Of a DNA stretch of 64,000 nt, positions 6,498 through 47,641 are shown piece by piece (positions within the stretch are counted from its first letter, which is position 1; the number at the start of each line of letters is the position of its first letter). A program made the translations under genes and the position numbers. The stretch comes from Psychromonas sp. SP041 (GTDB lineage: Bacteria > Pseudomonadota > Gammaproteobacteria > Enterobacterales > Psychromonadaceae): contig NZ_CBRF02000002.1 in assembly GCF_000470315.2 (NCBI RefSeq), positions 1-64,000 on the forward strand, read 5' to 3'. The notes below the pieces were generated by a model. That model made no database searches, was not told where the DNA came from, and was given only the letters and a program-made list of their open reading frames with translations.

Positions 6498-6525
6498 TCA
6501 TTCAGCACATGGATGTGCTGAATGA
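6498..6525 (+). repeat. Perfect 13-bp-arm hairpin
   Basis: TCATTCAGCACAT pairs with ATGTGCTGAATGA around a GG centre. No T-tract follows, so it is probably not an intrinsic terminator. It is part of the repeat block. Confidence 0.6.
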
Positions 6526-6590
6526 GCTGGTGCGTTAAGAAAGGCAATTAGCGTTTGGATAAGAAAGTGATCCGGTGGCCAGTTTCTTTG

Positions 6591-6737: not shown

Positions 6738-6842
6738 ATACGCTCTAAAAGGCAATTATGTAGGATTATTTATAGATATCATATAGTCGCAATTGCAACT
6801 AACTGTATCAGTTCAGACTATATTTTATCTGGGTTACCAACT

Positions 6843-19729: not shown

Positions 19730-19801
19730 TGGTGACTTCCTTTTATCTTTTAACTATTCTCTAATCGCATTGTGATTACTTCCTACTTTTAAAGTAATCA
19801 T

Positions 19802-32781: not shown

Positions 32782-34401
32782 TTATTGGAAAAACTCTGCC
32801 TGGGAGTATTCCACAAACGTTGTAGTATCAGGCCAAAGACGGAAAACGCGCAAGATAATATTATCTGCTAATCGCCATTGAAAGCTAGCTTCGCCTTGCA
32901 ACTGGTTACCTTGTGAATAACTCGGTTGGCCATAAGTCTCTACCAATTTATCTTTAACCGTTATTATCAAAGATGGATTATTTCGACCTACAAAAGTATA
33001 CGTTGCTTGCGTAAATTCATTATCTTCAGTGTAACGAATTGCTAACTCACTAGAGCCTTTTGTCATTGCTGCGGTGAAGTATGTATCGGTTGTTGAATCA
33101 TCGTCTTCAGAGATGACTTTGATTTTCTGTAATTTTATTTTTTCTCTTAATAATTCTCGGTTGGCACAACTTATTTTTTCATTGAATAAAAGAGTCGTTG
33201 CTGTTTTCAAGCATTTAGCATGTGTTACTAATTTAAATAAACGTTTTTTTGCCCATTTCTGCGGTGATTGTTGATATAGCAAAACGGCCGCTTTTTTATC
33301 TACTTTAGTAAAGATGCCGTTTTCATAAAAGTACGCCAATTTAGCATGGGCTAAAGGGTAGTTTAATGAAGAAGCATATTGATAGTTTTTAAAGGCTTTT
33401 TGTAAATTGGGAGATATATTATGCTTAAACTCAGTTGTACCATTTTCATAAATTTGAGCGAGTATATAATAAGCCTCTGCATGATCACGACGCGATGCTT
33501 GTGTGTACCAATCAATCGCGCGTTGAATGCTTTTGGTCGTACCTGTTCCCGTTTCTGATAAATGACCCAATTGGAATTGGGCATCAGTATTACCTTTCAA
33601 AGCGGCGAGACGATACCAAGAAATCGCTTTTTTATAATCGATGTCACCTGCATTTCCTGACTCATAAATCTGACCTAGTTTATAAGCGGCTTGCGAGAAA
33701 TTATTATTAGCTGATTGGTTATAAAGTTGAATAGCTTTGTCGTAATTTTGCTCTTCACCTAAACCATTTTCATACATGTAGGCAAGCTGATATTGAGCTA
33801 GCGGGTTGTCTTGATTCGCGGCAGATTGATACCAATAAAATGCTTTTTTATAATCTATTTCAAGCGCTTCACCTAATTGATATATATTGCCTAAATCTAT
33901 TTGTGCATTAACATGACCTTGTTCGGCCGCTTTTTGATACCATATAATGCTTTTTTTATTATCTTTTTTGGTGCCAATTCCATACTGGTAATAATTGCCA
34001 ACTTGATATTGAGATGTTGCATCACCTTGTTTTGCGGCTAGGAGGTAATAGTCTAAGGCTTTATTACTATCTTGTTCAACACCTGTTCCTTTTTCATGCA
34101 AAGTTGCAAGAACATATTGTGCAGCTTTGTATTCTTGTTTTGCTGATTTCAAATACCAATAAATAGCTTTTTTTAAATCCTTTTTAACACCTTGACCACT
34201 TTCATACATCCATCCGACAGTATATTGCGCAGGTGCATCACCTTTTTCTGCCAGAGGAACCCATATTTTAACGGCTTTTTTAAAATCGCCAGAGTGAGCT
34301 GCTTCGTAGCCTTCCGAAAATTTCGCTTGTGCTAGTAAGCCCCCAGAAAAAAGGGTGGTGATTGTAAATGCAATAAATACGTTATAAATTTTTTGCTTCA
34401 T
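32782..34401 (-). CDS. Exported Sel1/TPR repeat protein
   Basis: 539 residues. A signal peptide (about 1-26, ending LLAQA) is followed by about ten 36-residue Sel1 repeats, recognisable by AQYxxGxxYExGxG...KAxxWYxxAAxQG. The C-terminal 150 residues form a separate domain with cysteines and a beta-rich end. Sel1 arrays are scaffolds for protein binding in the periplasm or outer membrane. I prefer ATG 34401, which gives a clean signal peptide, over the upstream ATG at 34419. It lies downstream of the yfaE gene on the same strand but 186 bases away. Confidence 0.88.
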   Translation of the reverse strand: MKQKIYNVFIAFTITTLFSGGLLAQAKFSEGYEAAHSGDFKKAVKIWVPLAEKGDAPAQYTVGWMYESGQGVKKDLKKAIYWYLKSAKQEYKAAQYVLATLHEKGTGVEQDSNKALDYYLLAAKQGDATSQYQVGNYYQYGIGTKKDNKKSIIWYQKAAEQGHVNAQIDLGNIYQLGEALEIDYKKAFYWYQSAANQDNPLAQYQLAYMYENGLGEEQNYDKAIQLYNQSANNNFSQAAYKLGQIYESGNAGDIDYKKAISWYRLAALKGNTDAQFQLGHLSETGTGTTKSIQRAIDWYTQASRRDHAEAYYILAQIYENGTTEFKHNISPNLQKAFKNYQYASSLNYPLAHAKLAYFYENGIFTKVDKKAAVLLYQQSPQKWAKKRLFKLVTHAKCLKTATTLLFNEKISCANRELLREKIKLQKIKVISEDDDSTTDTYFTAAMTKGSSELAIRYTEDNEFTQATYTFVGRNNPSLIITVKDKLVETYGQPSYSQGNQLQGEASFQWRLADNIILRVFRLWPDTTTFVEYSQAEFFQ

Positions 34402-34587
34402 GCAAACACTAAATTCCATGTGATAAAAAAATGATATTATTTATTATGCCATTAGATAGTAATTAAAGCAGGTTTAAATTGCTTATATTGATATATAAAT
34501 CGCTTTATAGAGTCTTTTGGTCATAAAGTTATCAATTTTAAATGTGGATGTATTTGACTTAAATTTGGCGGGTAATGAATCGAGTAT

Positions 34588-34839
34588 TTATAGACTTTTA
34601 ATTATGATATTTTTTTCACTTTTACTACAGCAAAGTAAAATTTCACCTTCTTTTAAATAAGCCATTGGAAAGCTGCTGTAATTGACATCGCCAGAGACTA
34701 GAATTGAACGGCAAGCGCCACAATGTCCATCTCGGCAATGAAATTCGACAGACACTGCTTGAGATTCTAAGTTCTCAAGCAGTGTCTTATCTGCATCTAA
34801 TGTATATTGTTGTTCGTTGTAAATGAGTTTAGATGACAT
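34588..34839 (-). CDS. yfaE: 2Fe-2S ferredoxin YfaE, ribonucleotide reductase maintenance
   Basis: 83 residues. Plant-type ferredoxin with cysteine pattern CRDGHCGACRS and a last Cys in LLCCSK. YfaE reduces and rebuilds the diferric-tyrosyl cofactor of NrdB. It starts 14 bases after the nrdB stop and is surely in the same operon. Confidence 0.95.
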   Translation of the reverse strand: MSSKLIYNEQQYTLDADKTLLENLESQAVSVEFHCRDGHCGACRSILVSGDVNYSSFPMAYLKEGEILLCCSKSEKNIIIKSL

Positions 34840-34853
34840 TATTTTCTGTACGC

Positions 34854-35999
34854 TTATAGTTCAAATGTACTTAGGTCTTCACTGTCGACGGTACTGTTAA
34901 TTTGACCGACTAAGTAAGAACTAATTTCAGCTTCTTGAGGTGCTACTTGTACATTGTCGCTCACTAACCAATGGTTAATCCATGGAATTGGGTTAGTTTT
35001 AACTTCAAAAGGGGCTTCGTAACCAATTGCTTGCATACGTTGATTCGCAATGTACTCAACATACTGACATAGAATTTCTTCATTTAAGCCGATCATTGAA
35101 CCATCTTTAAATAGGTATTGAGCCCATTCTTTTTCTTGCTCAGCCGCTTTTAAGAAAATAGCTTTACCTTCAGCAAAACATTCTAATGCAATCTCTGCCA
35201 TTTCAGGATCATCTTTACCATCAGCCCAGATATTTAACATTTGTTGCGTTGAGTTCAAATGTAAGGCTTCATCACGTGCAATTAACTTGATGATCTTAGC
35301 ATTGCCTTCTAATAAATCGCGCTCTGCAAATGCAAATGAACAAGCAAATGATACATAAAAGCGTATTGCTTCTAGTGCATTAGTTGAACAAATACAAAGG
35401 TAGAGTTTCTTTTTAATATCACGCAATGTTAAGGCTTCAGTTTCACCTTGAATATTAACGTATTTAATATCAGTTTGTTCAAAGCCGTGTAGTTGCATGA
35501 ATTGCACAGCATGAATTAGCTCGTCGTAATAATAAGAAATATCAACAGCACGTTTTTGGATTTCGTCATTATTTACGATATCTTCAAACACTTCATTCGG
35601 GTCTGTGAATAAGTTACGTAAAATATGCGTGTAACTACGACTATGGATAGTCTCAGAGAATGCCCATGTTTCAATCCATGTTTCTAATTCTGGTAGTGAA
35701 ACAATAGGGAGTAGTGCAACATTTGGGCTACGTCCTTGAATCGAATCTAACAATGTTTGATATTTTAGATTAGAAATAAAAATGTGTTGCTCATGATCTG
35801 GCAAATTTAAGAAATCGATACGATCACGACTCACATCGATTTCTTCTGGGCGCCAGAAGAAACTTAACTGTTTTTCGATTAATTTTTCAAATACTTCGAA
35901 TTTTTGTTGGTCGTAACGAGCCACGTTAACAGGATTGCCAAAGAACATTGGTTCTTTCATAGCGTCATTGGAAAGGGTAGAGAAAGTTGTGTAAGCCAT
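34854..35999 (-). CDS. nrdB: Ribonucleoside-diphosphate reductase class Ia, beta subunit NrdB
   Basis: 381 residues. It carries the diferric-tyrosyl radical. The radical tyrosine is Tyr123 in [10 protein letters not shown]. Iron ligands are visible in [20 protein letters not shown] and ARDEALHL. I placed the start at 35999 (GGAGAG upstream); the longer open frame adds 20 residues. It pairs with yfaE downstream. Its usual partner nrdA is not adjacent: about 8.7 kb of other genes lie between, so nrdB must have its own promoter or read-through from that block. Confidence 0.96.
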
Positions 36000-36110
36000 G
36001 TGACTCTCCGTCAGAATTATAATGTTGCGTATACTAACAAGATAGTACGCTCGAATCACTTCTTTGTATCACTTTACCTTTTTTTTTATGGCAAAAAATA
36101 CTGGCTTAGC

Positions 36111-36917
36111 TTATTTTTTACGTTTAAAGGGCATGAACAGTAAGCCTAACAAATTTGCATTATCTTTTGCTGCTGGAAATTCTGTAATACCAATATCAAT
36201 TTCTAAATCTGGTTTCGTTGCTTCAGCTGAATAACTCCCAAATAATCTGTCCCACCAAATAACACTGAACCCATAATTCGAATTACTTTCTTTAAATAAT
36301 TGGCTGTGGTGTATGCGATGTAATATTTGTGTCATTAAAATTAAACGAGTAACCGCTTCAACTTTTTTGGGTAAACGAATATTGGCATGGTTAAACAACG
36401 CAAATCCATTTAACAACACTTCAAATAAAATAACGGCAAAGGCAGGAACGCCTAATAATATGACCGCGATGGCTTTGATGAAAATACTTGCGACTATCTC
36501 TAATGGATGAAAGCGCAAACCGGTACTGGCATCTACGTGAGTATCGGCATGATGTACTTTATGTAATTGCCATAATAAGGGGACTTTATGAAATAAACGA
36601 TGCTGCCAGTAAATGAGCATATCCAATAACAACAAACTTAATGTAATGGTTAACCAATAAGGTAAGTCGATGACATTAAATAACCCTAATTGAAGCTCTG
36701 TCACATAAAGAGCAAAACCTGTTAGGCCAAGTGGTAAGACTAATCTAGCGCTTAACCCAGAAAGAAAAACTAAGCCAAAGTTACCTATTAATCGTGTTTT
36801 TTGAGTAGGGGCTTGTGCATCTTTTCGTAATGGCCGCGCAGGAAAAAGTTGTTCTAATCCAAACATGACTATCAAGATAGTAAAAAAAATACTTAATCTT
36901 ACCAATGCGTCATCCAT
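36111..36917 (-). CDS. Sterol desaturase/fatty acid hydroxylase family membrane protein
   Basis: 268 residues, four to five membrane segments. The diiron histidine boxes are present: HRLFH (about 105), HKVHHAD (about 119) and RIHHSQL (about 203). The family includes sterol C4/C5 oxidases and bacterial alkylglycerol-monooxygenase-like or carotenoid hydroxylases, which act on membrane lipids. The start codon is one base from the stop of the CDP-alcohol transferase gene, so both are translationally linked. The substrate is probably a lipid made or used by the cluster. Confidence 0.88.
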   Translation of the reverse strand: MDDALVRLSIFFTILIVMFGLEQLFPARPLRKDAQAPTQKTRLIGNFGLVFLSGLSARLVLPLGLTGFALYVTELQLGLFNVIDLPYWLTITLSLLLLDMLIYWQHRLFHKVPLLWQLHKVHHADTHVDASTGLRFHPLEIVASIFIKAIAVILLGVPAFAVILFEVLLNGFALFNHANIRLPKKVEAVTRLILMTQILHRIHHSQLFKESNSNYGFSVIWWDRLFGSYSAEATKPDLEIDIGITEFPAAKDNANLLGLLFMPFKRKK

Positions 36918-36918
36918 G

Positions 36919-37554
36919 CTATTTTTCTTCTGGTTTACTATTGTGTGACTTTAGTGTTTGGTAGCCGCCATGAAGACGAGTAAAAACAGTGATCGCTGCT
37001 AAAAAAGCAAAGCTATAAGCTAACTCAGGGAAGTAGGCTGGCCATAAACAAAAGGCGACAAAAAAGGCGATAGTTTCTGTGCCTTCAGTTAATCCATTTA
37101 AAAAATAAAAGCTTTTATTCGCAAACTGTGGTCTTGCTAAGTTTAGTTTTTCTGCTGGAATAGCAAAGGCTAAGAAGGTTGACCCTGTGCCAATAAAAAC
37201 CGATAACAAGACAACGGCAGGTAGAGCATTCGCTGCTGGGTTTGCTAAAGCAAAACCGACGGGGATTGCTGCATAAAATAGAAAGTCGACACAAATATCT
37301 AAATAACCGCCTGCACTACTACTGCTTTTTTGATGACGAGCTAATGCCCCATCTAAGCCATCTAAAACACGGTTCAGTATTATCATTATTAGTGCCGCAC
37401 CCCAAAGTTGTGCTGCTAATAAAGGTACTGCTAATAAGCCAATAACAAATCCTACTAAAGTGACTTGGTCTGGATGTATACCACGTTTATCTAACTGCTC
37501 CACCACAGGTGTTAAAATCGGTTTGATATACGGTGTGACAAATCTATCTAGCAT
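36919..37554 (-). CDS. ynjF: CDP-alcohol phosphatidyltransferase (YnjF-like)
   Basis: 211 residues, about six membrane segments. The CDP-OH-P motif DGALAR...G...D...D is intact in DGLDGALARHQKSSSSAGGY and then LDICVDF. It transfers a phosphatidyl-type group from a CDP-activated lipid to an alcohol. It follows the ABC genes in the same order as E. coli ynjD-(ynjE)-ynjF, with the rhodanese ynjE absent here. The product is not known. It is overlapped closely by the hydroxylase gene downstream. Confidence 0.88.
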   Translation of the reverse strand: MLDRFVTPYIKPILTPVVEQLDKRGIHPDQVTLVGFVIGLLAVPLLAAQLWGAALIMIILNRVLDGLDGALARHQKSSSSAGGYLDICVDFLFYAAIPVGFALANPAANALPAVVLLSVFIGTGSTFLAFAIPAEKLNLARPQFANKSFYFLNGLTEGTETIAFFVAFCLWPAYFPELAYSFAFLAAITVFTRLHGGYQTLKSHNSKPEEK

Positions 37555-37576
37555 GTCTTTTCCCTATTGTTCAGTG

Positions 37577-38245
37577 TTATGAAGCCGCTTGATTTAAAGG
37601 TAGAGCATCTAATGTAATGACTTTTCCTTGTGCGGCAATAGCATCACTTTCATCATGTGTCACCATAACCGCTGGTAAACTATATCTTTGTATTTGTTCA
37701 AAAACCAACTGACGTGTTTCTTGGCGCAATTGACTGTCTAATTTACTAAAAGGTTCATCCAATAAAATAGCTTTCGGTTTACTTAATAATACACGTAATA
37801 AAGCGACTCGTGCTTGCTGACCGCCAGATAGGTTTTGCGGACAACGTTTCTCCATACCTGCAAGACCGACTTGGTTTAATGCTTCGCTAATTTCATCTTT
37901 ACGTGTTTTCTTATCACCTTTAGGCATAGCAAAAGCAATATTGCCTTCAACCGTTAAATGAGGAAATAATAAAGGATCTTGATATAACAAACCGATATTA
38001 CGAAGATGGCTTGCTGTGTTGGTAATAATTTGTTGGTTTAAGTAGAGTTCGCCATTTGCATAAAAATCGCTTGGCAACATACCAACCAACCAGTTCAATA
38101 GGGTCGATTTACCACTACCTGATGGGCCCATGATAGTTAAGACTTCGCCACCTTTCACTTCTTCGTTAAGGGAAAGTAAAAGCTTGCCTTGTTGGCTTAA
38201 TTGTAAATTATCGATCTTTAATGATGACATTGATTGTGATTTCAT
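37577..38245 (-). CDS. ynjD: ABC transporter ATP-binding protein YnjD
   Basis: 222 residues. Walker A GPSGSGKST, signature LSGGQQARVAL, Walker B AILLDEP and switch VTHD are complete. I chose ATG 38245, eight bases past the permease stop with TTAGGA upstream; the ORF could start earlier but would overlap ynjC by 40 bases. It drives the YnjC permease. The predicted substrate is unknown (the ThiBPQ/Fe3+-type branch is the nearest). Confidence 0.92.
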   Translation of the reverse strand: MKSQSMSSLKIDNLQLSQQGKLLLSLNEEVKGGEVLTIMGPSGSGKSTLLNWLVGMLPSDFYANGELYLNQQIITNTASHLRNIGLLYQDPLLFPHLTVEGNIAFAMPKGDKKTRKDEISEALNQVGLAGMEKRCPQNLSGGQQARVALLRVLLSKPKAILLDEPFSKLDSQLRQETRQLVFEQIQRYSLPAVMVTHDESDAIAAQGKVITLDALPLNQAAS

Positions 38246-38253
38246 TTGATTTC

Positions 38254-39960
38254 CTAACCTCGGTTCCGAAAGAACAACTTTGGTGCCGCCCAAGCTAATA
38301 TAAAAAATAATGCGGGTAATAACATTTGCATTAACGCGTAGACAGCGCTTGTTCTTCTGCTTGCGCCATTGGCAAGTGTAACGGCTTCCGTCGTGATGGT
38401 ATTAATTCGGCCTGCACCTGATAATAGCGTTGGTAAATACTGACTAAAGCTAATCGCTAAGCCTAACGCACTGGCAATTAAAATTGGCGATAATAGTAGT
38501 GGTAATTTCAACTGCCAAAATATTTTTGAGGGTTGAACACCAAGGCTTGCTGCAACAGTGCTAAAGCGAGGGTCTAAGCGGCGGTAACTATTTGCTAACG
38601 ATAAAAACACATAAGGTAAAACAAATAACAAATGTGAAAAAACCACGTTAATGTAAGCGTGTTGACTATTGACCTGCTCAAATAACCAGACCAGACCAAA
38701 TAAGAAGGCAATACTTGGTATCAATAGTGGTAAGTAAATAATGAAACCGCTAATAGCTGAAATAGTTTTAGTATTTTGCTGTTCAGCCTCTAATACAAAT
38801 AAGGTTAATGCAATGGCAATTAACGTGGTGCTAATAGCAATCACAAGTGTATTAAATAGTGGGGTTTGCATTTGTAGTAAAGCAGATGACCAATGCAAAG
38901 TAACAAGTTGCTGAGGCAATAAATCAGGGAAAGACCAGAAGCCTGCAAAAGACCATAGCACCATAGCAACAAGCGCTAAGCCGATAACACTTAACATCAC
39001 CGTAGTTATTAAATGTGTCACACGTTGAATCAACATGCCGCCGTATTCTCTTTCTCCATTCACTAAGAATGAAGTACTGCATTTTTTAACTAATAGCTCT
39101 AATAAACACCAACTGCCTAATAACGATAGAGTGATCAATATTTGTAAAATGGCACCCGATGAGGCTTTGATACGTAAACTTAAATCAACATCATTGAACC
39201 ACTGCATAATAGCAACGGCTAAAGTAGGAGGAGTGTTCGACCCTAAAATCAAAGGAATTTCGACACTCGCACTTGAATAAGCAAGTACCGCTAAAATAGG
39301 TAAACGCATATAACCGTAAAGGCTTGGTAAAATGACTTTAAAAAAGCCAGTCATTGGGCAGTAACCTAAGCTCGATGCCACTTTATGTTGTGCTTTTAAC
39401 GTTTTACCAATTTCAGGTTGAGCCAACACGCCCAATGCAATTAAAAGCAGAAAAGGGAGTTCTTTGAGCGTTAGCCCTAATATGATGCTCAATCCATAAG
39501 GGTCATGTGGAAATAACCAATCAGGTGGAATATCCCAACCAGTTAACCAAGGTGAGATAAGTCGTGATAAAAAACCAGAAGGGGTGATTAAGAAACCAAT
39601 GGCAATCGCAGCTGCGGCATGGGGAATCACTAATATAGGGCCTAGTAAACGTTGAATACGTTTTAACCAAGGACTGTTAAAATAACTGGCTAGTATCAAT
39701 ACGGTAATAACAAAAGCGAGTAGAGTACTAATTAAACTCGTACCAAAACTGAGTAATACCATGCGTTCAATACCAGGAGTATTAAACAGTTGTACGAATC
39801 CAAATAATCCAAACTCATTGGCGCCCAGAGCTGGGAACCATCCAAAAGCAGGTAATAATACCCCTAATAAACCGCCTAAAACGGGGACCACTAACAAAGC
39901 GATTAAAAGGTACGGACTATTACGAACTAAGCGCGTAAACAGGGTATTAGCAACAATCAT
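38254..39960 (-). CDS. ynjC: ABC transporter permease YnjC (fused two-half permease)
   Basis: 568 residues with about 12 membrane segments, two homologous halves as in ThiP/FbpB permeases. The EAA-like loops are visible as VASSLGYCPMTGFFKVILPSL and, in the second half, VAASLGVQPSKIFWQLKLPLL. It is four bases from the ynjB stop and eight bases before ynjD, a tight operon. Confidence 0.92.
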   Translation of the reverse strand: MIVANTLFTRLVRNSPYLLIALLVVPVLGGLLGVLLPAFGWFPALGANEFGLFGFVQLFNTPGIERMVLLSFGTSLISTLLAFVITVLILASYFNSPWLKRIQRLLGPILVIPHAAAAIAIGFLITPSGFLSRLISPWLTGWDIPPDWLFPHDPYGLSIILGLTLKELPFLLLIALGVLAQPEIGKTLKAQHKVASSLGYCPMTGFFKVILPSLYGYMRLPILAVLAYSSASVEIPLILGSNTPPTLAVAIMQWFNDVDLSLRIKASSGAILQILITLSLLGSWCLLELLVKKCSTSFLVNGEREYGGMLIQRVTHLITTVMLSVIGLALVAMVLWSFAGFWSFPDLLPQQLVTLHWSSALLQMQTPLFNTLVIAISTTLIAIALTLFVLEAEQQNTKTISAISGFIIYLPLLIPSIAFLFGLVWLFEQVNSQHAYINVVFSHLLFVLPYVFLSLANSYRRLDPRFSTVAASLGVQPSKIFWQLKLPLLLSPILIASALGLAISFSQYLPTLLSGAGRINTITTEAVTLANGASRRTSAVYALMQMLLPALFFILAWAAPKLFFRNRG

Positions 39961-39963
39961 TGT

Positions 39964-41235
39964 TTATTGAACTCCATAACGAGTAAGCCATTGTTCAGTT
40001 ATGACTTTAACCCAGCTAGGGTGTAACTCACTTAACAAACGGGTGTTATCTATATTGATGATATTCGCACTTAAATGTTGTTTTCCATCAACATCAAAAA
40101 GTGCTTTTTGTGTTGGTGTTAATTGCGATAAATCGAGCACGCTACTGTCGCCCCATATCACTGTTTTTTGTTTTCTCGCTTGTGCTTCTGGACTTAATAA
40201 AAAGTTAGCAACTAGCTTTGCACCTTCAATATGTGGTGAATTATAAGGAATCGCAACAAAGTGAATGTTACTTAAGCTTCCGTCTTTCATTCTATAGCTT
40301 CGAGTGCTATCTGGTAAATCATAACGAGAAATTGCTGAAGGAATTTCAGCGGCAGAGAAGGTGAAAGATACTTGTAATTCAGTGTCACTCATTAAACGTC
40401 GTAATGCTAAGCCATTGGATACAAAATGTTTACCTTGTCGCCATAAAGTCGGGTGTAATTGATCTAGAAATTGCCATAAAGCAGGCAATAATTCAGCTTC
40501 ACTTTCTGCTGACACTGGCTGATAAAGTTTATCTTGGATGATTTGGGGCTGTGATTCACTTAACACCAGTAATGCATATTTTAAAAAGCTCATGCCTAAA
40601 AAGTCAGGTGGTTTCGGGTAAGTAAAATGACCTGGATGCTTTTCACTCCAAATTAATAAATCAGAGAGAGTCTCTGGTACATCATTTACTTTTAAACTAT
40701 CGAAATAAAAGGTGAGCGCAGCTTGTCCCCATGGCGCTTCCATTCCTTGTGTTGGAACGCCGAAGTCACGAGTCATAGCGGGGTTGTTGGTTGGATTTGT
40801 TAATTGAAAGTTAGGTAGTTCACCAGCCCAGTCTGCGGCTAATAATTGGTATTTTGCCATTGAAGCAAAGTTTGCTCCATTGATCCAAACAAGATCAACT
40901 TGCCCGTTACGGTGATTGTCAGCGGCTTTTTCTGCTAACACTCTGCTGACGGCTTCACTTGTATCGGTGAGTTTTACATGGTGTAAATTAATTTTATATT
41001 TTTCTTTAACCTGCTTAGCAGCCCATTGAATATAATTATTAATTTGTTGATCGCCTCCCCAGGCATGAAAATATACATCTTGTTTAGTGCCACGCATTTC
41101 AACGTTTTTCCAAACTCGGGAAGTTGATTCAGCCGTACTATTTGCCTCATCGGCAAATGAGTTGCTGCTAAGCGAAAAAACGCTTAGCAGACAAAGGCTA
41201 ACAAGAATCTTACGGTAATAATTACTTACTCGCAT
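39964..41235 (-). CDS. ynjB: ABC transporter substrate-binding protein YnjB
   Basis: 423 residues. Signal peptide about 1-28 (ending SFA), then a type II periplasmic-binding fold with VYFHAWGGDQQINNYIQWA and DLVWINGANFASM. This matches the YnjB family, distantly related to thiamine and iron binding proteins. It overlaps the DUF547 gene by 14 bases (ATG inside the upstream gene). Substrate unknown. Confidence 0.9.
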   Translation of the reverse strand: MRVSNYYRKILVSLCLLSVFSLSSNSFADEANSTAESTSRVWKNVEMRGTKQDVYFHAWGGDQQINNYIQWAAKQVKEKYKINLHHVKLTDTSEAVSRVLAEKAADNHRNGQVDLVWINGANFASMAKYQLLAADWAGELPNFQLTNPTNNPAMTRDFGVPTQGMEAPWGQAALTFYFDSLKVNDVPETLSDLLIWSEKHPGHFTYPKPPDFLGMSFLKYALLVLSESQPQIIQDKLYQPVSAESEAELLPALWQFLDQLHPTLWRQGKHFVSNGLALRRLMSDTELQVSFTFSAAEIPSAISRYDLPDSTRSYRMKDGSLSNIHFVAIPYNSPHIEGAKLVANFLLSPEAQARKQKTVIWGDSSVLDLSQLTPTQKALFDVDGKQHLSANIINIDNTRLLSELHPSWVKVITEQWLTRYGVQ

Positions 41236-42073
41236 TAAGCTTCCAATCGTAATCTAAAAATTTAACATTAAAATCTTGTTTTTTTAATGTTGCCGATTGC
41301 TGAGCATCTAGTTTTAATGCGTCAACGTATAACCCGATAAAGCTTTGTATTGATTTAGTGCCACGGAACCCAGCTTCAAAGTCTTCATCATACCATTTAA
41401 AAATAGATGATAAGTAAATCGCGTTACCTTTGATGTAGTTACGGCTTGAATCCGTTAAAAATCGTTCGGTTTGTTGTGTTAACTGTTGCTCAAGTTTATC
41501 TGCAGTATACGCTTCTTCACGAAGTGCAGGACAGCCGATACTTGCACAGTTAACCGCAAAATGAATACGCGGATCATTGTAGCGTTTGCTACCACGAATA
41601 AGACCGTGTTCAATATCATTTAAACTCATTGTTTTGCCCAATAGTGGAACAAATTCTTTATCCCATGGAGAGCTAAATAAACTGCCTAAATCTTTAATCG
41701 ATTTTAGGTCAGGGTATTTAGTTAAAATAAGTTCAACAGTCCAAGCATTATAAGCGTTGATTAAAAAAGCTAATTGCTTCTCTTTTGGCCAAGCATCAAA
41801 GTCTGCACGTGAGACTTCACTTAATTTATCAAGATAAGCTTGTAGTTCGCTTTCTTGATTTTTAAAGCCTGCGTAGTCAACTGCTGTACTGTGACCCATG
41901 TTAACAGGGGTAATATGTTGCTCTAATAATTCAGTCCAACCTACATGTAGATTTTTTTGATTAGTTTCTGCATACACATTACTCATTAATGAGCTACTTA
42001 ATAGAGCAGCGCCTAAAGTGAAGCGCACCAATGCACTCACTTTGTTGGTTGTGTTTAATATCATTGAGTTCAT
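41222..42073 (-). CDS. DUF547 family protein, exported
   Basis: 283 residues. Signal peptide about 1-35 (ending VYAET). The DUF547 core is seen as LAFLINAYNAWTVELIL and RIHFAVNCASIGCPALREEAY, with a conserved Cys pair and His. DUF547 proteins are found with redox and envelope genes; the reaction is unknown. The start at 42073 overlaps the upstream stop (TAATG), and GGAG lies 10 bases upstream. An earlier ATG (42088) would overlap more. Its position between the reductase and ynjB makes it the place-holder of ynjA/ydjY in this version of the cluster. Confidence 0.87.
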   Translation of the reverse strand: MNSMILNTTNKVSALVRFTLGAALLSSSLMSNVYAETNQKNLHVGWTELLEQHITPVNMGHSTAVDYAGFKNQESELQAYLDKLSEVSRADFDAWPKEKQLAFLINAYNAWTVELILTKYPDLKSIKDLGSLFSSPWDKEFVPLLGKTMSLNDIEHGLIRGSKRYNDPRIHFAVNCASIGCPALREEAYTADKLEQQLTQQTERFLTDSSRNYIKGNAIYLSSIFKWYDEDFEAGFRGTKSIQSFIGLYVDALKLDAQQSATLKKQDFNVKFLDYDWKLNASK

Positions 42074-44226
42074 TAACCGCGTCTCCATGTGTGGTATTTT
42101 TCTAACCAGTTTAATACTGTTTGTGGTGCATGATTACGTTTCCATTCACCAGCTGCGTATTTGTTACCTTCAGCCCAAGTAGGGTAGCTGTGGATAGTGC
42201 CAAGAATCTTATTAAGTCCTAAACCATGTTTCATTGCTAATACAAACTCTGCAATCAAATCACCAGCATGTTCAGATACAATCGTAACCCCTAATATTTT
42301 GTCTTTGCCCTTAGGCGTAATCACTTTAATGAAACCTTTTGTTGCACTGTCTGTGATTGCACGGTCTAGCTCTTCAAAGTCAAAGCGTGTGATTTCATAA
42401 TCAATCCCTTTTTCTTTTGCTTCAGCTTCGTTAATACCAACACGAGCCACTTCTGGGTCAATAAAGGTCGTCCATGGAATAACACGGTAATCTACTTTGA
42501 ATTTTTTCAAGTTTCCGAATAAACCATTTACTGCTGCGTACCACCCTTGATGTGCTGCAACATGCGTAAATTGGTATGGGCCAACAATATCACCTGCGGC
42601 AAAAATGTTCGGGTAAAGTGTTTCTAAGTATTCATTGGTTACAATGGTACGGTTAGTTTCAATACCTAGCTCTTCTAAGCCGTAACCTGTTAAGCGAGCA
42701 CTACGTCCTACTGCACATAGTAGTTGATCGTATTCAATCGCAATTTCTTCTTCGTTATGTTTAACGATGATGAATTTTTTACCCTCTTTAATTTCGCAAC
42801 GTAATGCTTGGTGTGACGTTAAGATGTTAACACCACTTTCTTTTAGCGACTCGGTAGCAAATTCAGATACTTCAAGATCTTCTTTGATCATGATGCGTTC
42901 AGCCATTTCAATCTGCGTTACGTTTGAACCTAAACGTGCAAAGCTTTGTGCTAATTCTGAACCGATTGGACCACCACCTAGCACCACTAACTTTTTCGGT
43001 GCTTCTTCAAGCTTAGCGAATTCATTCCATAATGTATCACTAGTAACGTAACCTGTTTCTTCGATTCCTGGTAGTGGTGGAACAAATGGACGAGCACCGG
43101 TTGCGATAACAATACTACGTGTTGTTAGTTTCTTAGTCGTTCCATCTTCATAACTAATTTGTACTGTCCAAGGGTCAAGGATTTTTGCATAACCTTTTTC
43201 AACTTCAACACCTAAATCTGTGTAACGTTCAACACTATCGTGTGGCGCTACATCTGCAACCACTTGATGAACACGTTCCATTACTTTCTTGAAAGAAAAT
43301 TGTGGTGTTGTATCTTCTAAACCATAGTGGTGTGCATGACGAATTTGATCTGCAATCTTAGCGCTTTTGATAATCGCTTTACTTGGTACACAACCATAGT
43401 TAAGACAATCTCCACCCATCTCACCAGCTTCAATTAATGTTACTTTCGCTTTTACTGCTGCTGCGATATAACTTGTTACCAAACCACCTGCACCTGCGCC
43501 AATCACAACCATATTACGGTCAAACTTAGCGGGTTTAGTCCATTTACTGTAAACGCGACGTTTTTTAATCATATTAACAATACCTTTAGCAATGAGTGGG
43601 AATACACCTAATAGAACAAAAGAAAGAATTAAATTAAAAGATAGGATGTTAGAGATACTATCGATTTGAGCTAATTGTGTACCTGCATTTACGAAGATAA
43701 ACGTACCTGCTAGCATACCTAATTGGCTTACCCAATAGAAAGTCCATGCCTTAATCGCAGTGACACCCATTAATAAGTTAATTAAAAAGAATGGGAAGAT
43801 AGGCACTAGACGTAACGTAAATAGGTAAAAAGCACCTTCTTTTTTAATACCTTCATCAATTGATGCTAAACGCTCCGGGAAACGCTTTTTAAGTGAGTCA
43901 CGTAATAAGTAACGAGACACTAAGAATGATGATAAAGCCCCTAAGCTAGAAGCAAATGAAGCAATAACAAAACCTTCAAATAAACCAAATAGTGCACCAG
44001 CTGCTAATGTTAAAATAGCGGCACCAGGTAATGCGAGTGCAGTTACCAATACATACAAAACGAAGAAGCCACCAATAACAAGAACAGGAGAATGTACTCT
44101 CAATTCAGTGAATTGGTCCATTGATCCTTTCAATCCTTCTAGAGTTAGAAGTTGATGTAAATTGAAGTGGAAAAACAATCCTATTAATACGATTGCTAGT
44201 AACAGCAGTACGATCTTTTTTAACAT
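42073..44226 (-). CDS. TVP38/DedA-like membrane domain fused to a mercuric-reductase-type FAD disulfide oxidoreductase
   Basis: 717 residues. Residues about 1-225 form a TVP38/TMEM64 (VTT) domain: six membrane segments, the re-entrant FASSLGALSSFLVSRYLLR and the LRLVPIFPFFLINLLMGVT. Residues about 235-710 are a pyridine-nucleotide-disulfide oxidoreductase: FAD motif GAGAGG (243-248), redox cysteines Cys274/Cys279 in GGDCLNYGCVPSK, NADH site LGGGPIGSELAQ, and the dimer domain ending IHSYPTWAEGNKYA. Two activities in one chain suggest membrane-coupled thiol or metal redox. It is the first gene of the operon that runs to the hydroxylase. Confidence 0.93.
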   Translation of the reverse strand: MLKKIVLLLLAIVLIGLFFHFNLHQLLTLEGLKGSMDQFTELRVHSPVLVIGGFFVLYVLVTALALPGAAILTLAAGALFGLFEGFVIASFASSLGALSSFLVSRYLLRDSLKKRFPERLASIDEGIKKEGAFYLFTLRLVPIFPFFLINLLMGVTAIKAWTFYWVSQLGMLAGTFIFVNAGTQLAQIDSISNILSFNLILSFVLLGVFPLIAKGIVNMIKKRRVYSKWTKPAKFDRNMVVIGAGAGGLVTSYIAAAVKAKVTLIEAGEMGGDCLNYGCVPSKAIIKSAKIADQIRHAHHYGLEDTTPQFSFKKVMERVHQVVADVAPHDSVERYTDLGVEVEKGYAKILDPWTVQISYEDGTTKKLTTRSIVIATGARPFVPPLPGIEETGYVTSDTLWNEFAKLEEAPKKLVVLGGGPIGSELAQSFARLGSNVTQIEMAERIMIKEDLEVSEFATESLKESGVNILTSHQALRCEIKEGKKFIIVKHNEEEIAIEYDQLLCAVGRSARLTGYGLEELGIETNRTIVTNEYLETLYPNIFAAGDIVGPYQFTHVAAHQGWYAAVNGLFGNLKKFKVDYRVIPWTTFIDPEVARVGINEAEAKEKGIDYEITRFDFEELDRAITDSATKGFIKVITPKGKDKILGVTIVSEHAGDLIAEFVLAMKHGLGLNKILGTIHSYPTWAEGNKYAAGEWKRNHAPQTVLNWLEKYHTWRRG

Positions 44227-44669
44227 AATTTATTAGCCTTTAAATGATGGCGGTGAGGCGATTTGTAGGTTGTATTACAACTACTAAAGCACCAAGGTCG
44301 AGTTTTATTGTTTATCTTTTTTTGTCAATATCTAGCTTTTGATTATGGGTGTTTTTCTGCATAATTGATAGCTCCCACATAAAGACCTGATTATGTTTAA
44401 TTTAATTGCTTAATTATTCAAATAATTACAATTTAATTTTTAGAAGTACTAAGCCAGTAGTTATCAATATGTATTTAATAAGTGGTATTTTTATTTTAGT
44501 TCAATAATCTAAAAGAACAAATAAATTATATGTTTAAGAGGAATTATTAGAGTGTCATCTTTAAAATACTTAGTTTGAAAGAGTAAGTTTGACGGTTTGA
44601 AAAGCATAAAAAAGGGATGTGCTAAACACATCCCTTTTATTAACTTACTATGTTGTTAACGGCTGAAAT
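44227..44669. other. Intergenic region before the ydj/ynj-like operon
   Basis: 443 bases, AT-rich. It holds the nrdA terminator (44610-44638) and must carry the promoter of the downstream seven-gene operon. I see no gene. Confidence 0.6.
44610..44638 (-). terminator. Intrinsic terminator of nrdA
   Basis: On the - strand AAAAGGGATGTG pairs with CACATCCCTTTT around a five-base loop, followed by further T residues. It shows that nrdA is transcribed as its own unit, separate from the operon before nrdB. Confidence 0.92.
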
Positions 44670-46940
44670 TTATATCTTACAAGCACCGCCAGCACAACTG
44701 TCATCTTCAAACACTTTTTCATCATCAGCACCGTCACGAGTGTTATGGTAATAAAGTGTTTTTAAGCCCATTTTATAAGCCATTAACAGATCTTTAAGTA
44801 AGATTGTCATTGGTACTTTACCGTCATCAAAACGTTTAGGGTCGTAGTTCGTATTTGCTGAGATAGCTTGGTCGACAAACTTTTGCATAATACCAACAAG
44901 TTCCAAGTAACCTTTATTATTTGGAATACTCCATAATAACTCATAGTTATTTTTGTATTTATTAAATTCAGGTACTACCTGTTTTAAAATACCGTCTTTA
45001 CTTGCTTTAATACTGATGAAACCACGTGGTGGTTCAATACCGTTAGTCGCATTTGAAATCTGACTTGATGTTTCAGAAGGCATCAATGCTGATAACGTTG
45101 AGTTACGTAAACCATCTTTAACGATATCTGCACGTAACGTTTCCCAGTCTAAATGATACTCTTCATCACAAATTGCATCTAAAGATTTTTTGTACGTATC
45201 TAACGGTAGAATACCTTTTGCATAATTAGTTTCATTAAACTTAGGACATGCACCACGCTCTTTGGCTAACTTGTTTGATGCTTTCAATAAGTAGAATTGA
45301 ATCGCTTCAAAGGTTTTATGCGTTAAATTGTTAGCACTACCGTCTGAGTATTTTACGCCATTTTTAGCTAAGTAATAAGCGTAGTTGATAACACCTATAC
45401 CTAACGTACGGCGATTCATGCTGCTTTTTTCTGCTGCGATGATTGGGTAATCTTGGTAATCCAACAAGTTATCTAATGCACGTACAGCAAGTTCAGACAA
45501 CACTTCAATTTCATCTAATGACTCAATCGCACCTAAGTTGATTGCAGATAAAGTACATAAAGCGATTTCGCCTTCTTCATCTTTAATATGTGTAAGTGGT
45601 TTCGTCGGTAACGCTATTTCTAAACACAAGTTACTTTGGCGAACCGGTGCAACTTTGCTGTCAAATGGACTGTGCGTATTACAGTGATCAACATTTTGAA
45701 TGTAAATACGTCCAGTACTTGCACGTTCTTGCATTAACAGTGAGAACAATCTTACTGCTGGAATCGAGCTTTGACGGATTGACTCATCACCTTCGTAAAG
45801 GTGGTATAAACGTTCGAATTCATCTTGATCTTCAAAGAACGCATCATACATTCCCGGCGTATCAGAAGGGCTGAATAAGGTAATGTCTTTTTTGTCGATT
45901 AAACGTTGGTAGAATAAACGACCTAATTGCACACCATAATCAAGGTGACGAACACGGTTAGAGTCAATACCACGGTTATTTTTCAATACTAATAGCGATT
46001 CAACTTCTAAATGCCAGATAGGGTAGAAGACCGTTGCTGCGCCACCACGAACACCACCTTGTGAACAAGATTTAACCGCTGTTTGGAAATGTTTATAAAA
46101 TGGAATACACCCCGTATGATAAGCTTCGCCACCACGAATGTTACTACCCATTGCGCGAATACGACCTGCATTAATACCGATACCAGCACGTTGCGATACA
46201 TATTTAACAATTGCACTTGATGTTGCATTGATTGAATCTAAGCTATCGTCTGCTTCAATTAATACACATGAACTGAATTGACGTGTTGGAGTACGAACAC
46301 CAGACATAATAGGTGTTGGTAATGAGATTTTAAATTGAGAAGTCGCATCGTAAAAACGTTTTACATAATCTAAACGTACGTCTTTATCGTAATCAGCAAA
46401 TAAACAAGCTGATACTAAAAGGTATAAGAATTGCGCACTTTCATAAATCTCACCCGTGACACGGTTTTGGATAAGGTACTTACCCTCTAACTGTTTTACG
46501 GCAGCGTATGAAAAGTTTAAATCACGTTTGTGATCGATAAACTTATTCATCTCTTCAAATTCTTGCTTGGTATAATCTTCTAGTAAATGTGCATCATATT
46601 TACCTTTAGTGACCATTTTGCTTACGTGCTCAAACACACTTGGTGGTGTAAAACGTTGATATGCACGTTTGCGTAAGTGGAATACGGCTAAATGCGCTGC
46701 TAAATATTGATAATCAGGCGATTCTTCTGAGATTAAATCGGCTGCTGCTTTGATAATAGTTTCATGAATATCATCAGTACGAATGCCATCATAAAACTGA
46801 ATGTGTGAGTTCAACTCTACCTGTGAAACTGAAACGTTGTTTAGACCTTCCGCTGCCCACGTGATGACGCGATGGATTTTGTCAAGATCTATAGGTTCTT
46901 TTTTACCATTTCGTTTAGTAACAGATAGGTTTTTGTTCAT
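44670..46940 (-). CDS. nrdA: Ribonucleoside-diphosphate reductase class Ia, alpha subunit NrdA
   Basis: 756 residues. It reduces ribonucleotides to deoxyribonucleotides. It has an N-terminal ATP-cone (RNGKKEPIDLDKIHRVITWA), active-site Cys in SSCVLIEADDS, the thiyl region NLCLEIALPT, and the C-terminal redox pair Cys749/Cys754 (CAGGAC). The start at 46940 (AAAGG upstream) gives the family start; the ORF extends nine codons further. It has its own promoter region with NrdR boxes and its own terminator. nrdB does not follow. Confidence 0.97.
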   Translation of the reverse strand: MNKNLSVTKRNGKKEPIDLDKIHRVITWAAEGLNNVSVSQVELNSHIQFYDGIRTDDIHETIIKAAADLISEESPDYQYLAAHLAVFHLRKRAYQRFTPPSVFEHVSKMVTKGKYDAHLLEDYTKQEFEEMNKFIDHKRDLNFSYAAVKQLEGKYLIQNRVTGEIYESAQFLYLLVSACLFADYDKDVRLDYVKRFYDATSQFKISLPTPIMSGVRTPTRQFSSCVLIEADDSLDSINATSSAIVKYVSQRAGIGINAGRIRAMGSNIRGGEAYHTGCIPFYKHFQTAVKSCSQGGVRGGAATVFYPIWHLEVESLLVLKNNRGIDSNRVRHLDYGVQLGRLFYQRLIDKKDITLFSPSDTPGMYDAFFEDQDEFERLYHLYEGDESIRQSSIPAVRLFSLLMQERASTGRIYIQNVDHCNTHSPFDSKVAPVRQSNLCLEIALPTKPLTHIKDEEGEIALCTLSAINLGAIESLDEIEVLSELAVRALDNLLDYQDYPIIAAEKSSMNRRTLGIGVINYAYYLAKNGVKYSDGSANNLTHKTFEAIQFYLLKASNKLAKERGACPKFNETNYAKGILPLDTYKKSLDAICDEEYHLDWETLRADIVKDGLRNSTLSALMPSETSSQISNATNGIEPPRGFISIKASKDGILKQVVPEFNKYKNNYELLWSIPNNKGYLELVGIMQKFVDQAISANTNYDPKRFDDGKVPMTILLKDLLMAYKMGLKTLYYHNTRDGADDEKVFEDDSCAGGACKI

Positions 46941-47641
46941 TATTTTGCCTTTATCAAAAAACGCCAATAACTATTTTATTAAAAACAAATAGTTATTCGC
47001 GCTAGTGTGAATTGTTTAATTAAAACACAAGATGTAGTGTTGATTTTAAAAAAGAGACACAAGATAACGTTTTTTAGAATAATTTCAAGGGATAACTTTT
47101 ACTAAATTAGTGGATAAAATTGTGGACAAATTGGCATGCTTTCCTACGGTTAGTAGTTACTAACAAAATGCTGTAAGTGAGGTCTGTTTTATACAAATTG
47201 CAATAACTATTTTAGTTTTTTTTTTACCTCTAAATTGCTTTCTATATAAACAAAAGTTTTTTAAAATTTATTTTTTAATGTCTCAATTTGAGAGAGTCAT
47301 GTGGTTTAGTGTTATTGATATAACCTATCAATTTTTCTTTTAAATAATGAACTTCCGATGTGAGCGTATTAGTAACTGTACTTGATTACTCTTACTTTAT
47401 ATTTTTGATCTGATTTTACTCTATCAATTCTATTTTTTAAGTATGAATGAATCATCTTATTATTTTGTCATTTAAGTTATTTATCGATCACTACTTACTT
47501 TTTTATATATGCCCGTTACCGTTTAAGGTGCTTTGTGCAGTCGTTAGCTTGGACTTTAAATCAAGGCGCAACATGATAACAATGGTGAGTCCTGATCGAA
47601 GGTTGAAACGCAGAGTTAGTTTTTAAGCTAGGTAGATTAAT
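46941..47641. other. nrdA promoter region and AT-rich gap
   Basis: 701 bases. The first 100 hold NrdR-type sites. The remainder is AT-rich with T-runs (TTTTTTTTTACC near 47217-47230). A possible DnaA or Fis control cannot be judged by eye. I see no gene. Confidence 0.55.
47003..47040 (-). promoter_or_regulatory. NrdR boxes upstream of nrdA
   Basis: ACACAAGATGTAGTGT (47025-47040) fits the NrdR palindrome. A weaker half-site TAGTGT (47003-47008) lies exactly 32 bases from the equivalent half of the first box, matching the known three-turn spacing. NrdR-ATP would repress nrdA. Confidence 0.7.

Follow-up and report, generated by a model that had tools for sequence, protein, structure and literature searches.

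Organization and probable insertion of the locus

The window, i.e., the whole 64-kb stretch of DNA that was analysed, comes from the marine bacterium Psychromonas and carries seven closely packed ORFs on its minus strand, running from 44226 to 36111 (Table 1). Their positions and order were confirmed: from 5' to 3', they encode a fusion of a VTT domain and a reductase (VTT-reductase), a DUF547 protein, YnjB, YnjC, YnjD, a YnjF-like CDP-alcohol phosphotransferase (CAPT) and a hydroxylase. The first two genes overlap by 16 bp and those of the DUF547 protein and YnjB by 14 bp, ynjB and ynjC are 3 bp apart, and the gaps between ynjD and ynjF and between ynjF and the hydroxylase gene amount to 22 and 1, respectively. 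Between ynjC and ynjD there is a gap of 8 if translation of ynjD begins with the first ATG (the start in the ORF list, a TTG at 38293, would give an overlap of 40). These overlaps and short gaps on a single strand bear out the proposal of the first-pass annotation that the genes form one operon in this order.

Table 1. Positions of the operon genes and of the flanking features in the window.
Feature	Position	Strand	Basis
VTT/TVP38 (COG0398 DedA-type) and MerA-like FAD/pyridine-nucleotide reductase fusion, 717 aa	42073..44226	-	Pfam
DUF547 protein, 288 aa	41222..42088	-	PF04784, 104 bits
ynjB, ABC substrate-binding protein, 423 aa	39964..41235	-	NF008633, 490 bits
ynjC, double-length ABC permease, 568 aa	38254..39960	-	PF00528, 30 bits
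ynjD, ABC ATPase	37577..38245	-	PF00005, 109 bits
YnjF-like CAPT, 211 aa	36919..37554	-	PF01066, 45 bits
Diiron fatty-acid-hydroxylase/sterol-desaturase family membrane protein, 268 aa	36111..36917	-	PF04116, 98 bits
Terminator-like hairpin between nrdA and the operon	44610..44638	-	13-pair stem and T run
nrdA, upstream boundary gene outside the operon	44670..46967	-	Named by eye and gene order
nrdB, downstream boundary gene	34854..35999	-	ATG start; named by eye

The hairpin upstream of the operon stems from a scan that, overall, did not exceed shuffled sequences (6 hairpins found versus 6.8 expected). Downstream, the most likely start of nrdB is the ATG at 35999, 111 nt past the stop of the hydroxylase gene; the listed ORF start, a GTG at 36059, was judged less likely. 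No riboswitch was detected at the gathering score in the window, at an E value of 1 ahead of the operon, or in the ynj loci of seven relatives. Among the 23 Psychromonas genomes that have nrdB, the nrdA-nrdB junction holds the operon in nine and nrdA directly precedes nrdB in 12; hence, the operon was probably gained as one block between these two genes, which encode the DNA-precursor enzyme of the bacterium.

The YnjBCD importer and its E. coli counterpart

The genes ynjB, ynjC and ynjD are contiguous on one strand and accompanied by a YnjF orthologue, and YnjB scores well above the curated cut-off of its family (NF008633/PRK11622, cut-off 203). Its AlphaFold2 model (pLDDT 92.5) adopts a class II SBP fold that, in the structure comparison, lies near binders of 2-aminoethylphosphonate (2-AEP), hexose phosphates, polyamines, iron and sugars alike. 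Nine residues (W30, N37, Y39, D85, W88, N90, D128, E137 and W140, numbered on the mature protein) are kept in 59-61 of 61 sequences spanning loci with and without a CAPT gene, and this shared conservation suggests one ligand class for both kinds of loci.

Could the ligand simply be 2-AEP, a polyamine or thiamine, imported by a system of the PhnSTUV, PotABCD or ThiBPQ type that has lipid genes next to it for unrelated reasons? The top match of YnjB, in Foldseek (E 9.8e-16) and among the profiles (E 1.5e-5), is the 2-AEP-binding protein 4r6y, YnjB figures among the polyamine-binding homologues tabulated in a review (PMC9397018) and, according to PMC9184624, ynjC is annotated as thiamine/sulfate/thiosulfate-type. 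There is also similarity to the corresponding models, although the scores fall far under the NCBIfam cut-offs both for YnjC (PhnV, 48.9 of 358.7 bits; ThiP, 42.4 of 395) and for YnjD (PhnT2, 165.5 of 457.7; ThiQ, 154 of 245). Moreover, YnjB has a family of its own, the riboswitch searches gave no hit, and the linkage to lipid genes across many genera speaks against chance neighbours, which makes this explanation rather improbable.

The kinship with the E. coli ydjXYZ-ynjABCD(E)F region (NC_000913) put forward by the first-pass annotation is supported by the YnjF proteins (56.5% identity over 207 aa); ynjB, ynjC and ynjD follow the same order in both organisms, with VTT (TVP38) proteins encoded upstream. 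Nevertheless, E. coli has two separate VTT proteins together with YdjY (4Fe-4S), YnjA (AhpD-like) and YnjE (rhodanese), whereas none of the seven Psychromonas proteins is a separate YdjX/YdjZ, YdjY, YnjA or YnjE, and the VTT domain appears only as a fusion. In turn, the reductase fusion, the DUF547 protein and the hydroxylase are absent from the E. coli region, where ynjF lies on the opposite strand, unlike the Psychromonas gene, which is on the operon strand. The view that the E. coli counterpart is also uncharacterised agrees with the excerpts of the literature that our search returned, in which no tested function of ynjBCD turned up. According to PMC9184624, the ynjC substitution P213S brings a fitness gain under colistin and, in another screen quoted there, cells deleted for ynjC took up less of one cationic dye out of two; similarly, PMC2731931 counts ynjA (1.6-fold) and ynjB (1.4-fold) among the BaeR-responsive genes. 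These data are in agreement with an envelope role.

The VTT-reductase and the DUF547 protein

The VTT-reductase combines PF09335 (VTT_dom; 87 bits, residues 70-183) with PF07992 (Pyr_redox_2; 206 bits) and PF02852 (107 bits), and its active site reads CLNYGCVPSK. In a set of 65 such proteins of over 600 aa, the redox-active CxxxxC appears as CLN(Y/T/S)GCVPSK in all of them, and a Tyr occupies, again in 65/65, the position of the catalytic His of thiol reductases. In the mercuric reductase MerA, too, Tyr replaces the catalytic His, so that both proteins share the FAD reductase core, the redox CxxxxC and this Tyr. Unlike MerA, the VTT-reductases possess an N-terminal VTT membrane domain and lack the C-terminal vicinal cysteines (a CC pair within the last 25 residues was found in 0/65), and the operon protein stays under the cut-off of the MerA model TIGR02053 (383 versus 454 bits). 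Consequently, for the protein labelled "thiol/FAD reductase" by the first-pass annotation, ordinary disulfide reduction is not safe to assume due to the invariant Tyr.

This class of fusion has already been published: in the available part of PMC10127716, the same combination of a COG0398 DedA/VTT domain and a pyridine-nucleotide-disulfide oxidoreductase is described as the commonest fusion of that subfamily, and no context of ynjBCD, ynjF or ArsS clusters was found there. Why a VTT domain, whose family is linked to lipid movement, should recur in combination with a MerA-like flavoreductase is a puzzle in its own right.

The DUF547 protein begins with a signal-like stretch (by eye) and is probably periplasmic. 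Its motif H....C....C (H138, C143 and C148 in trimmed-protein numbering) is invariant across 30 aligned sequences, and no second DUF547 copy was found in its own genome at E 0.001.

Lipid enzymes and their conservation at ynjB loci

The top NCBIfam model of the CAPT is archaetidylinositol phosphate synthase (74 bits, under the cut-off of 180) and its closest solved chain is 4mnd (E 6e-8). The signature D-x2-D-G-x2-A-R...G-x3-D-x3-D is kept in 73/73 CAPT proteins with a spacer of 5-16, of which 40 match the narrower pattern (spacer 8-9) and 33 fit only the freer one. As for the hydroxylase, the histidine boxes HX3-4H, HX2-3HH and HX2-3HH are kept in 36/36 proteins; it shares its Pfam family with the ornithine-lipid hydroxylase OlsE, whose model (NF052566) is its sole NCBIfam match, at 89.8 bits against a cut-off of 475.

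Within the order, 130 of 394 genomes have ynjB, 106 have the VTT-reductase and 89 have both (odds ratio 31.5, Fisher p 1.5e-38, kinship not corrected for), less than 5 kb apart in 55 of these 89. This co-occurrence, together with the recurrence of the operon gene set in other genera, indicates that the grouping is more than chance. A CAPT of the YnjF family lies less than 7 kb from ynjB in 73/142 loci, on the same strand in 64; the remaining 69 have none within that distance and comprise, among others, every locus of the set from Halomonadaceae and alphaproteobacteria, as well as five on small contigs from which the CAPT may be cut off. The hydroxylase is found in 36/142 loci, always with a CAPT and in 35 with the VTT-reductase, and is absent from 37 of the 73 CAPT loci. 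Its position varies, being mostly downstream, but upstream of ynjB in L085 and on the opposite strand in L116 and L117, while L257 has hydroxylase, VTT-reductase and CAPT without ynjBCD. In addition, 23/142 loci carry upstream, on the same strand, a TonB-dependent receptor (identity taken from one representative). That lipid genes are conserved together with ynjBCD, the test which the first-pass annotation had set for itself, is thus seen in several arrangements, and the recurrence of CAPT, hydroxylase and TonB receptor lends comparative support to its idea that uptake may be coupled to a lipid head group, whereas the 69 loci with no nearby CAPT speak against it.

Parts shared with ArsS clusters

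A new observation is that the VTT-reductase, the DUF547 protein and the hydroxylase recur, mostly singly, in arsenosugar-type clusters, i.e., those with the radical-SAM protein ArsS (TIGR04167), TIGR04283, TIGR04282 and ArsM. The VTT-reductase is present in 10/10 ArsS genomes of genus g244, about 3 kb or less from ArsS in five. L241 combines a sigma factor, a radical SAM protein with DUF3641 (ArsS), VTT-reductase, TIGR04283 and TIGR04282; L242 presents ArsS, TIGR04283, TIGR04282 and the hydroxylase as one run; L309, the hydroxylase followed by the same three; and L321, ArsS, DUF547, TIGR04283, TIGR04282 and an ArsM-like gene. VTT-reductases from ynj and ArsS contexts interleave in one tree. 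Conversely, the "arsenosugar" gene TIGR04283 (family name derived from L168) occurs without a CAPT at 18/142 ynjB loci (17 Halomonadaceae and one alphaproteobacterium), and in Halomonadaceae TIGR04283/04282 adjoin ynjBCD. The insertion between nrdA and nrdB, the TonB receptor of the relatives and the parts common to ArsS clusters had all escaped the first-pass annotation.

Does the operon then handle organo-metalloids? According to such a reading, ynjBCD would import a sugar carrying methylated arsenic, or a compound closely analogous to it, which the membrane enzymes common to ArsS clusters would turn into a lipid or detoxify. The shared parts, the mixed loci and the interleaved tree favour it. 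However, the Psychromonas operon lacks ArsS, ArsM, TIGR04283 and TIGR04282, and its genome gives at best 47.4 bits for ArsS (cut-off 300) and 53.3 for the TIGR04283 glycosyltransferase (cut-off 182). ArsS is also absent, at E 1e-40, from 6/6 Halomonadaceae genomes with ynj and TIGR04283/04282, so their "arsenosugar" label is one by association; ynjB, at E 1e-50, is found in 0/10 ArsS genomes of the order; and 9/20 ArsS loci examined have neither ynj-type parts nor a distant reductase. Furthermore, ynj exists in E. coli and other enterics, for which arsenosugars would be no obvious nutrient. Altogether, we regard this reading as decidedly improbable.

Proposed function and alternative explanations

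Our tentative explanation, plausible but short of probable, is that the operon modifies envelope lipids, has an importer of its own to feed it and was gained as a block. Its direct basis consists of the families of the parts, their packing, their co-conservation and their presence or absence at the nrdA-nrdB junction; we infer the direction and order of the steps, the lipid product and the VTT activity. YnjB would bind, and YnjCD import, a small polar or cationic organic compound, which in some relatives would first cross the outer membrane via the TonB-dependent receptor. YnjF, on the inositol-phosphate-synthase side of the CDP-alcohol phosphotransferases, might then join the compound or a derivative to a lipid with release of CMP, and the diiron membrane oxygenase might hydroxylate the lipid so made. 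By analogy with its family, the VTT domain could shift the lipid from leaflet to leaflet, and the flavoreductase and the DUF547 protein may oxidise or reduce the head group or a precursor of it. Counting against this scheme are the ynjB loci with no nearby CAPT, the CAPT loci that lack a hydroxylase, and the YnjB fold, which resembles binders of many kinds.

The same genes could instead form an envelope redox-repair or stress module, whose core would be the reductase and DUF547, joined in E. coli by the AhpD-like, 4Fe-4S and rhodanese proteins; the lipid enzymes would mend or shield the membrane, and the importer would supply a reductant or cofactor. Near ynjB there are AhpD-like genes (10/142 loci), rhodaneses (15/142) and TIGR03169 oxidoreductases (9/142), a methionine sulfoxide reductase fusion lies immediately upstream of the VTT-reductase in L257, and COG0398 VTT proteins are said to accompany aerobic metabolism (PMC10127716, in the part available). 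Yet this leaves the CDP-alcohol transferase and, in many genera, the TonB receptor unexplained as partners, and we consider it unlikely. A long shot is that a single membrane pathway can be entered in two ways, by salvage through ynjBCD operons and by synthesis through ArsS clusters: ArsS clusters would make an arsenic-bearing deoxyribosyl head group, ynj would import it or a non-arsenical analogue, and from either source it would pass to an interchangeable tail made up of VTT-reductase, DUF547 and diiron hydroxylase, with TIGR04283/TIGR04282 or YnjF as alternative joiners of head group to lipid. If that were true, the E. coli ynj genes would be a stripped-down salvage version.

YnjBCD, found in E. 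coli and in many marine bacteria, is an unassigned ABC importer. Its recurrent partners (YnjF, the diiron hydroxylase, the TonB receptor and the VTT-reductase), together with the overlap with ArsS clusters, reduce the range of ligands to consider and point to modified lipids as the class of product to seek, so that lipidomics and a targeted binding screen could test the question.

Genomic organization and origin of the operon

The seven genes that the first-pass annotation had read as one operon were recovered at the place that it gave, on the minus strand (see the table), and Pfam and NCBIfam confirmed the named family of each encoded protein. Within the operon, the genes overlap or are separated by gaps of at most 22 bp. 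It starts 443 bp past nrdA, with a terminator-like hairpin in between, and 111 bp separate its end from the probable nrdB ATG, so that, lying between these genes and behind the hairpin, it may leave nrdB reliant on operon read-through or on its own promoter. An Rfam scan of the window at the gathering score yielded only a tRNA and a distant TwoAYGGAY match, with no riboswitch or known RNA before the operon, and no known RNA was found in the loci of seven relatives. Below the threshold there were two sRNA matches (E 0.16 and 0.43), which overlap the terminator of nrdA and were attributed to chance. A search of viral contigs with YnjB alone, a method that detects close relatives only, found no relative, and a PHROGs scan of four operon proteins gave a match, a generic one, for the VTT-reductase only.

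Coordinates of the operon, its surroundings and two related loci
Feature	Positions	Strand	Description (source)
Seven-gene operon	44226 to 36111	minus	VTT-reductase, DUF547, ynjB, ynjC, ynjD, YnjF-like CAPT, hydroxylase
VTT-reductase	residues 70-183; 238-689	minus	VTT/TVP38 domain; MerA-like flavoreductase (Pfam, NCBIfam)
YnjB		minus	NF008633, 490 bits vs cut-off 203
ynjC, ynjD		minus	Double-length permease; ABC ATPase (Pfam, NCBIfam)
Remaining proteins		minus	DUF547, CDP-alcohol phosphotransferase (CAPT), fatty-acid-hydroxylase-family protein (Pfam, NCBIfam)
nrdA-operon-nrdB region	34854-46967		Operon separates nrdA from nrdB
Terminator-like hairpin	44638-44610		After nrdA
Sub-threshold sRNA matches	44555-44646
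Small ferredoxin-like gene	34588-34839		Between nrdB and the Sel1-like repeat protein
545-aa protein	32782-34419	minus	Sel1-like repeats (by eye); further downstream than nrdB and the ferredoxin-like gene
TwoAYGGAY RNA (RF01731)	6424-6585	plus	63 bits, cut-off 43 (Rfam)
122-aa TTG ORF	6793-7161	plus	Sole ORF of at least 100 aa 3' of the RNA, plus strand, to 9500; antisense to another ORF
328-aa protein	5053-6039	minus	Resembles glycine-betaine/choline-type substrate-binding protein (by eye)
Locus L257	6879-12685		VTT-reductase and CAPT with ynjBCD not nearby
Locus L164 (Halomonadaceae)	19020-20159		TIGR03169 oxidoreductase (NCBIfam 'Nterm_to_SelD') after VTT-reductase, as in other loci of the family

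Psychromonas arctica is the nearest named relative (YnjB 86% identical, among the best 80 of 584 matches), and another genome of the genus carries a YnjB of 99% identity. Among 24 Psychromonas genomes surveyed, 23 gave an nrdB match, the second nrdB of strain SP041 (L350, 65% identical) being excluded. The hydroxylase gene stands immediately upstream of nrdB, with nrdA at the operon's far end, in nine of these 23; nrdA itself does so in 12 (gaps between matches of 4-146 bp, once 511 bp); DUF547 and the VTT-reductase alone occupy the position in one (G528), and neither arrangement appears within 1.5 kb of nrdB in the last (G381). The plainest reading is that the operon was inserted as a unit into the nrdA-nrdB junction within the genus.

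Co-conservation of the ynj and lipid genes

Among 394 genomes of the order, and with hard thresholds of E <=1e-50 for ynjB and E <=1e-130 for the VTT-reductase, ynjB was present in 130, the VTT-reductase in 106 and both in 89, at most 5 kb apart in 55; one genome scored as having the reductase only (G609) has a divergent ynjB (L246). Neighbours within 7 kb were then collected for 142 ynjB loci (a class sample supplied 9 and the order 60, 72 are named loci and one is that of E. coli), which are those of 150 where a simple ORF caller retained the YnjB ORF (dropped: L169, L171, L179, L185, L189, L192, L204 and L205). The named loci come from the best 80 of 584 matches and hence form an uneven sample, at least one genome is counted twice (L074 and L150) and five loci are truncated by contig ends (L086, L120, L123, L129 and L143). 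Longest-ORF calling misses genes in GC-rich genomes, so that absences are over-counted even for ynjC (found at 125 of the 142) and ynjD (111).

The accompanying genes were CAPT (73), VTT-reductase (69), hydroxylase (36), DUF547 (31), a weakly MauE-like protein (24), a TonB receptor (23), an APH-family kinase (19), TIGR04283 (18), TIGR04282 (16), rhodanese (15), a separate VTT (12), an AhpD-like protein (10) and TIGR03169 (9), the TonB, APH, MauE-like and three TIGR identities resting on one annotated representative per cluster. CAPT is present wherever the hydroxylase is (36/36), and the full set of TonB receptor, VTT-reductase, DUF547, ynjBCD, CAPT and hydroxylase occurs in Shewanella, Colwellia, Pseudocolwellia, Pseudoalteromonas, Alteromonas and Salinimonas. 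The lipid genes are thus co-conserved with ynjBCD, so that the lack of co-conservation by which the earlier proposal would have been refuted did not come about, and that proposal, which joined uptake of an alcohol or head group to lipid building, is partly supported. Counting against it, CAPT was not seen at 69 of the 142 loci, a figure that the ORF caller inflates.

Other arrangements were also seen. In L257, a pyridoxamine-phosphate-oxidase-like gene lies between CAPT and the hydroxylase, with a methionine sulfoxide reductase fusion upstream. A divergent ynjB group (L039 and L040, one gammaproteobacterium represented twice) has DUF547 and a TonB receptor, CAPT not being found. The small MauE-like membrane protein (138-152 aa, match weak and under cut-off; L138-L149, L087-L095) sits beside the VTT-reductase or its TonB receptor; several genera have it in divergent orientation, whereas in Psychrobacter it is in line.

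Clues to ligand and chemistry

The YnjB model (pLDDT 92.5) is a class II binding protein, with a 2-AEP-binding protein (4r6y) and AfuA as nearest Foldseek matches and VIA-align Z scores of 25.6-27.6 among the 50 matches listed. According to Foldseek, this fold is common to binders of sugars, glycerophosphodiesters, dinucleotides, 2-AEP, hexose phosphates, polyamines and iron, and therefore no ligand is inferred from the structure. Strand-helix loops line the cleft in the class II fold, and the invariant residues of YnjB (W, Y, D, E and N) lie at or next to these loops in the model; as a guess, a cationic or polyol ligand would fit them. In the genera having an upstream TonB receptor, its presence may imply a scarce or bulky ligand. 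No experimental YnjB substrate is assigned in the literature passages searched (including PMC3836016, PMC7818093, PMC6071238, PMC9405208, PMC9397018, PMC13131330 and PMC8801600), and in E. coli ynjC P213S has been linked to colistin (PMC9184624) and ynjA-D to BaeR (PMC2731931).

The CAPT catalytic motif is kept in 73/73 proteins, and most of the sequence relatives of CAPT that have a structure are transferases of the inositol-phosphate type (4mnd at E 6e-8, followed by 4o6m, 5d92 and 6h53). All 65 VTT-reductases longer than 600 aa keep CLN(Y/T/S)GCVPSK, none has a CC near the C terminus, and 63 carry H-x-Tyr-Pro-Thr-x2-Glu, the other two, read by eye, also having Tyr before Pro. Thiol reductases have His where these proteins, like MerA, have Tyr. 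Thiamine, 2-AEP and mercury readings were set back, since model cut-offs were not reached and the cysteine pair is missing. Among COG0398 DedA proteins, the VTT-reductase fusion has been described as the commonest one (PMC10127716). The AlphaFold2 model of DUF547 (pLDDT 80, from an alignment of only 12 sequences) gave no Foldseek match at E <0.001 and no VIA-align Z of at least 8 (best 6.3), which does not by itself prove a new fold. The open-licence literature yielded nothing on DUF547 together with TVP38 or on ynjF together with phosphatidyltransferase, which implies no absence elsewhere in print.

A link with ArsS-type clusters

Many Halomonadaceae show the order APH kinase, ynjBCD, TIGR04283, TIGR04282, VTT-reductase, with TIGR03169 added in some, and NCBI names TIGR04283 and TIGR04282 arsenosugar glycosyltransferases. 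The 18 ynjB loci with TIGR04283 (17 Halomonadaceae and the alphaproteobacterium Defluviimonas, L208) and the 73 with CAPT have zero overlap among the 142, an exclusivity much of which kinship alone could explain.

ArsS, the radical SAM protein TIGR04167 of arsenosugar-type clusters, exceeds its cut-off in 10 of the 394 genomes. All ten belong to genus g244 and are exactly the g244 genomes with the VTT-reductase; two further ones listed (G356 and G614) have neither. The two genes are about 3 kb or less apart in five (G540, G650, G439, G623 and G511) and distant or on separate contigs in the other five. Locus L241 runs sigma factor, radical SAM with DUF3641, VTT-reductase, TIGR04283, TIGR04282, and L242, where the ORFs overlap or abut, runs ArsS, TIGR04283, TIGR04282, hydroxylase (218 bits).

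Twenty ArsS loci, from 19 of the 104 matching genomes in a phylum sample (259) plus Psychrobacter G894, were read for neighbours within 8 kb, ArsS being placed in L310, L315, L317 and L320 by profile search and not shown by BLAST labelling. Five (L307, L308, L309, L310 and L321) have TIGR04283 and TIGR04282 together, three (L307, L308 and L311) the VTT-reductase, whole or as two halves, and one (L316) a separate VTT; DUF547 occurs in L311 and L321, and the hydroxylase in L309 (187 bits; the next hydroxylase-family protein of SP041 scores 41). L312 and L318 have distant reductases near ArsS (276-290 bits), which branch far off in the tree and were not counted as the same subfamily. None of these parts was seen in 11 of the 20; an ArsM-like gene is present in four of the 11 (L304, L305, L306 and L323), and three others (L315, L317 and L320) received no gene label.

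A tree built from 55 reductase parts places the ArsS-linked L307, L308 and L311, together with the g244 sequences, among ynj-linked ones, many forks being weakly supported and the long rows L104 and L257 meeting; the ArsS label needs four changes, a number also reached in 57 of 500 shuffles. ArsS is missing from all six Halomonadaceae genomes in which it was sought, and neither ArsS nor TIGR04283 was found in SP041. Both an ArsS cluster (L321) and, separately, a ynj operon (L138) are present in Psychrobacter G894. It is concluded that certain ArsS clusters and ynj operons take their membrane and redox parts from a single pool; arsenic handling by the Psychromonas operon is not concluded from these shared parts.

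Conclusions

The adenosylation of arsenic by radical SAM chemistry during the biosynthesis of arsenosugars has been described, with ArsS among the references cited (PMC12159101), and joint searches of the open-licence literature for at least two of TIGR04282, TIGR04283, DUF2064 and 'arsenosugar biosynthesis' yield a single paper, on iodate reduction. The comparative tie between the ynj operon and ArsS-type clusters was not met in the open-licence literature searched. As for the function of the operon, the most likely one, put forward tentatively, would be to import a small molecule and, coupled to this uptake, to modify envelope lipids, a redox step being involved.
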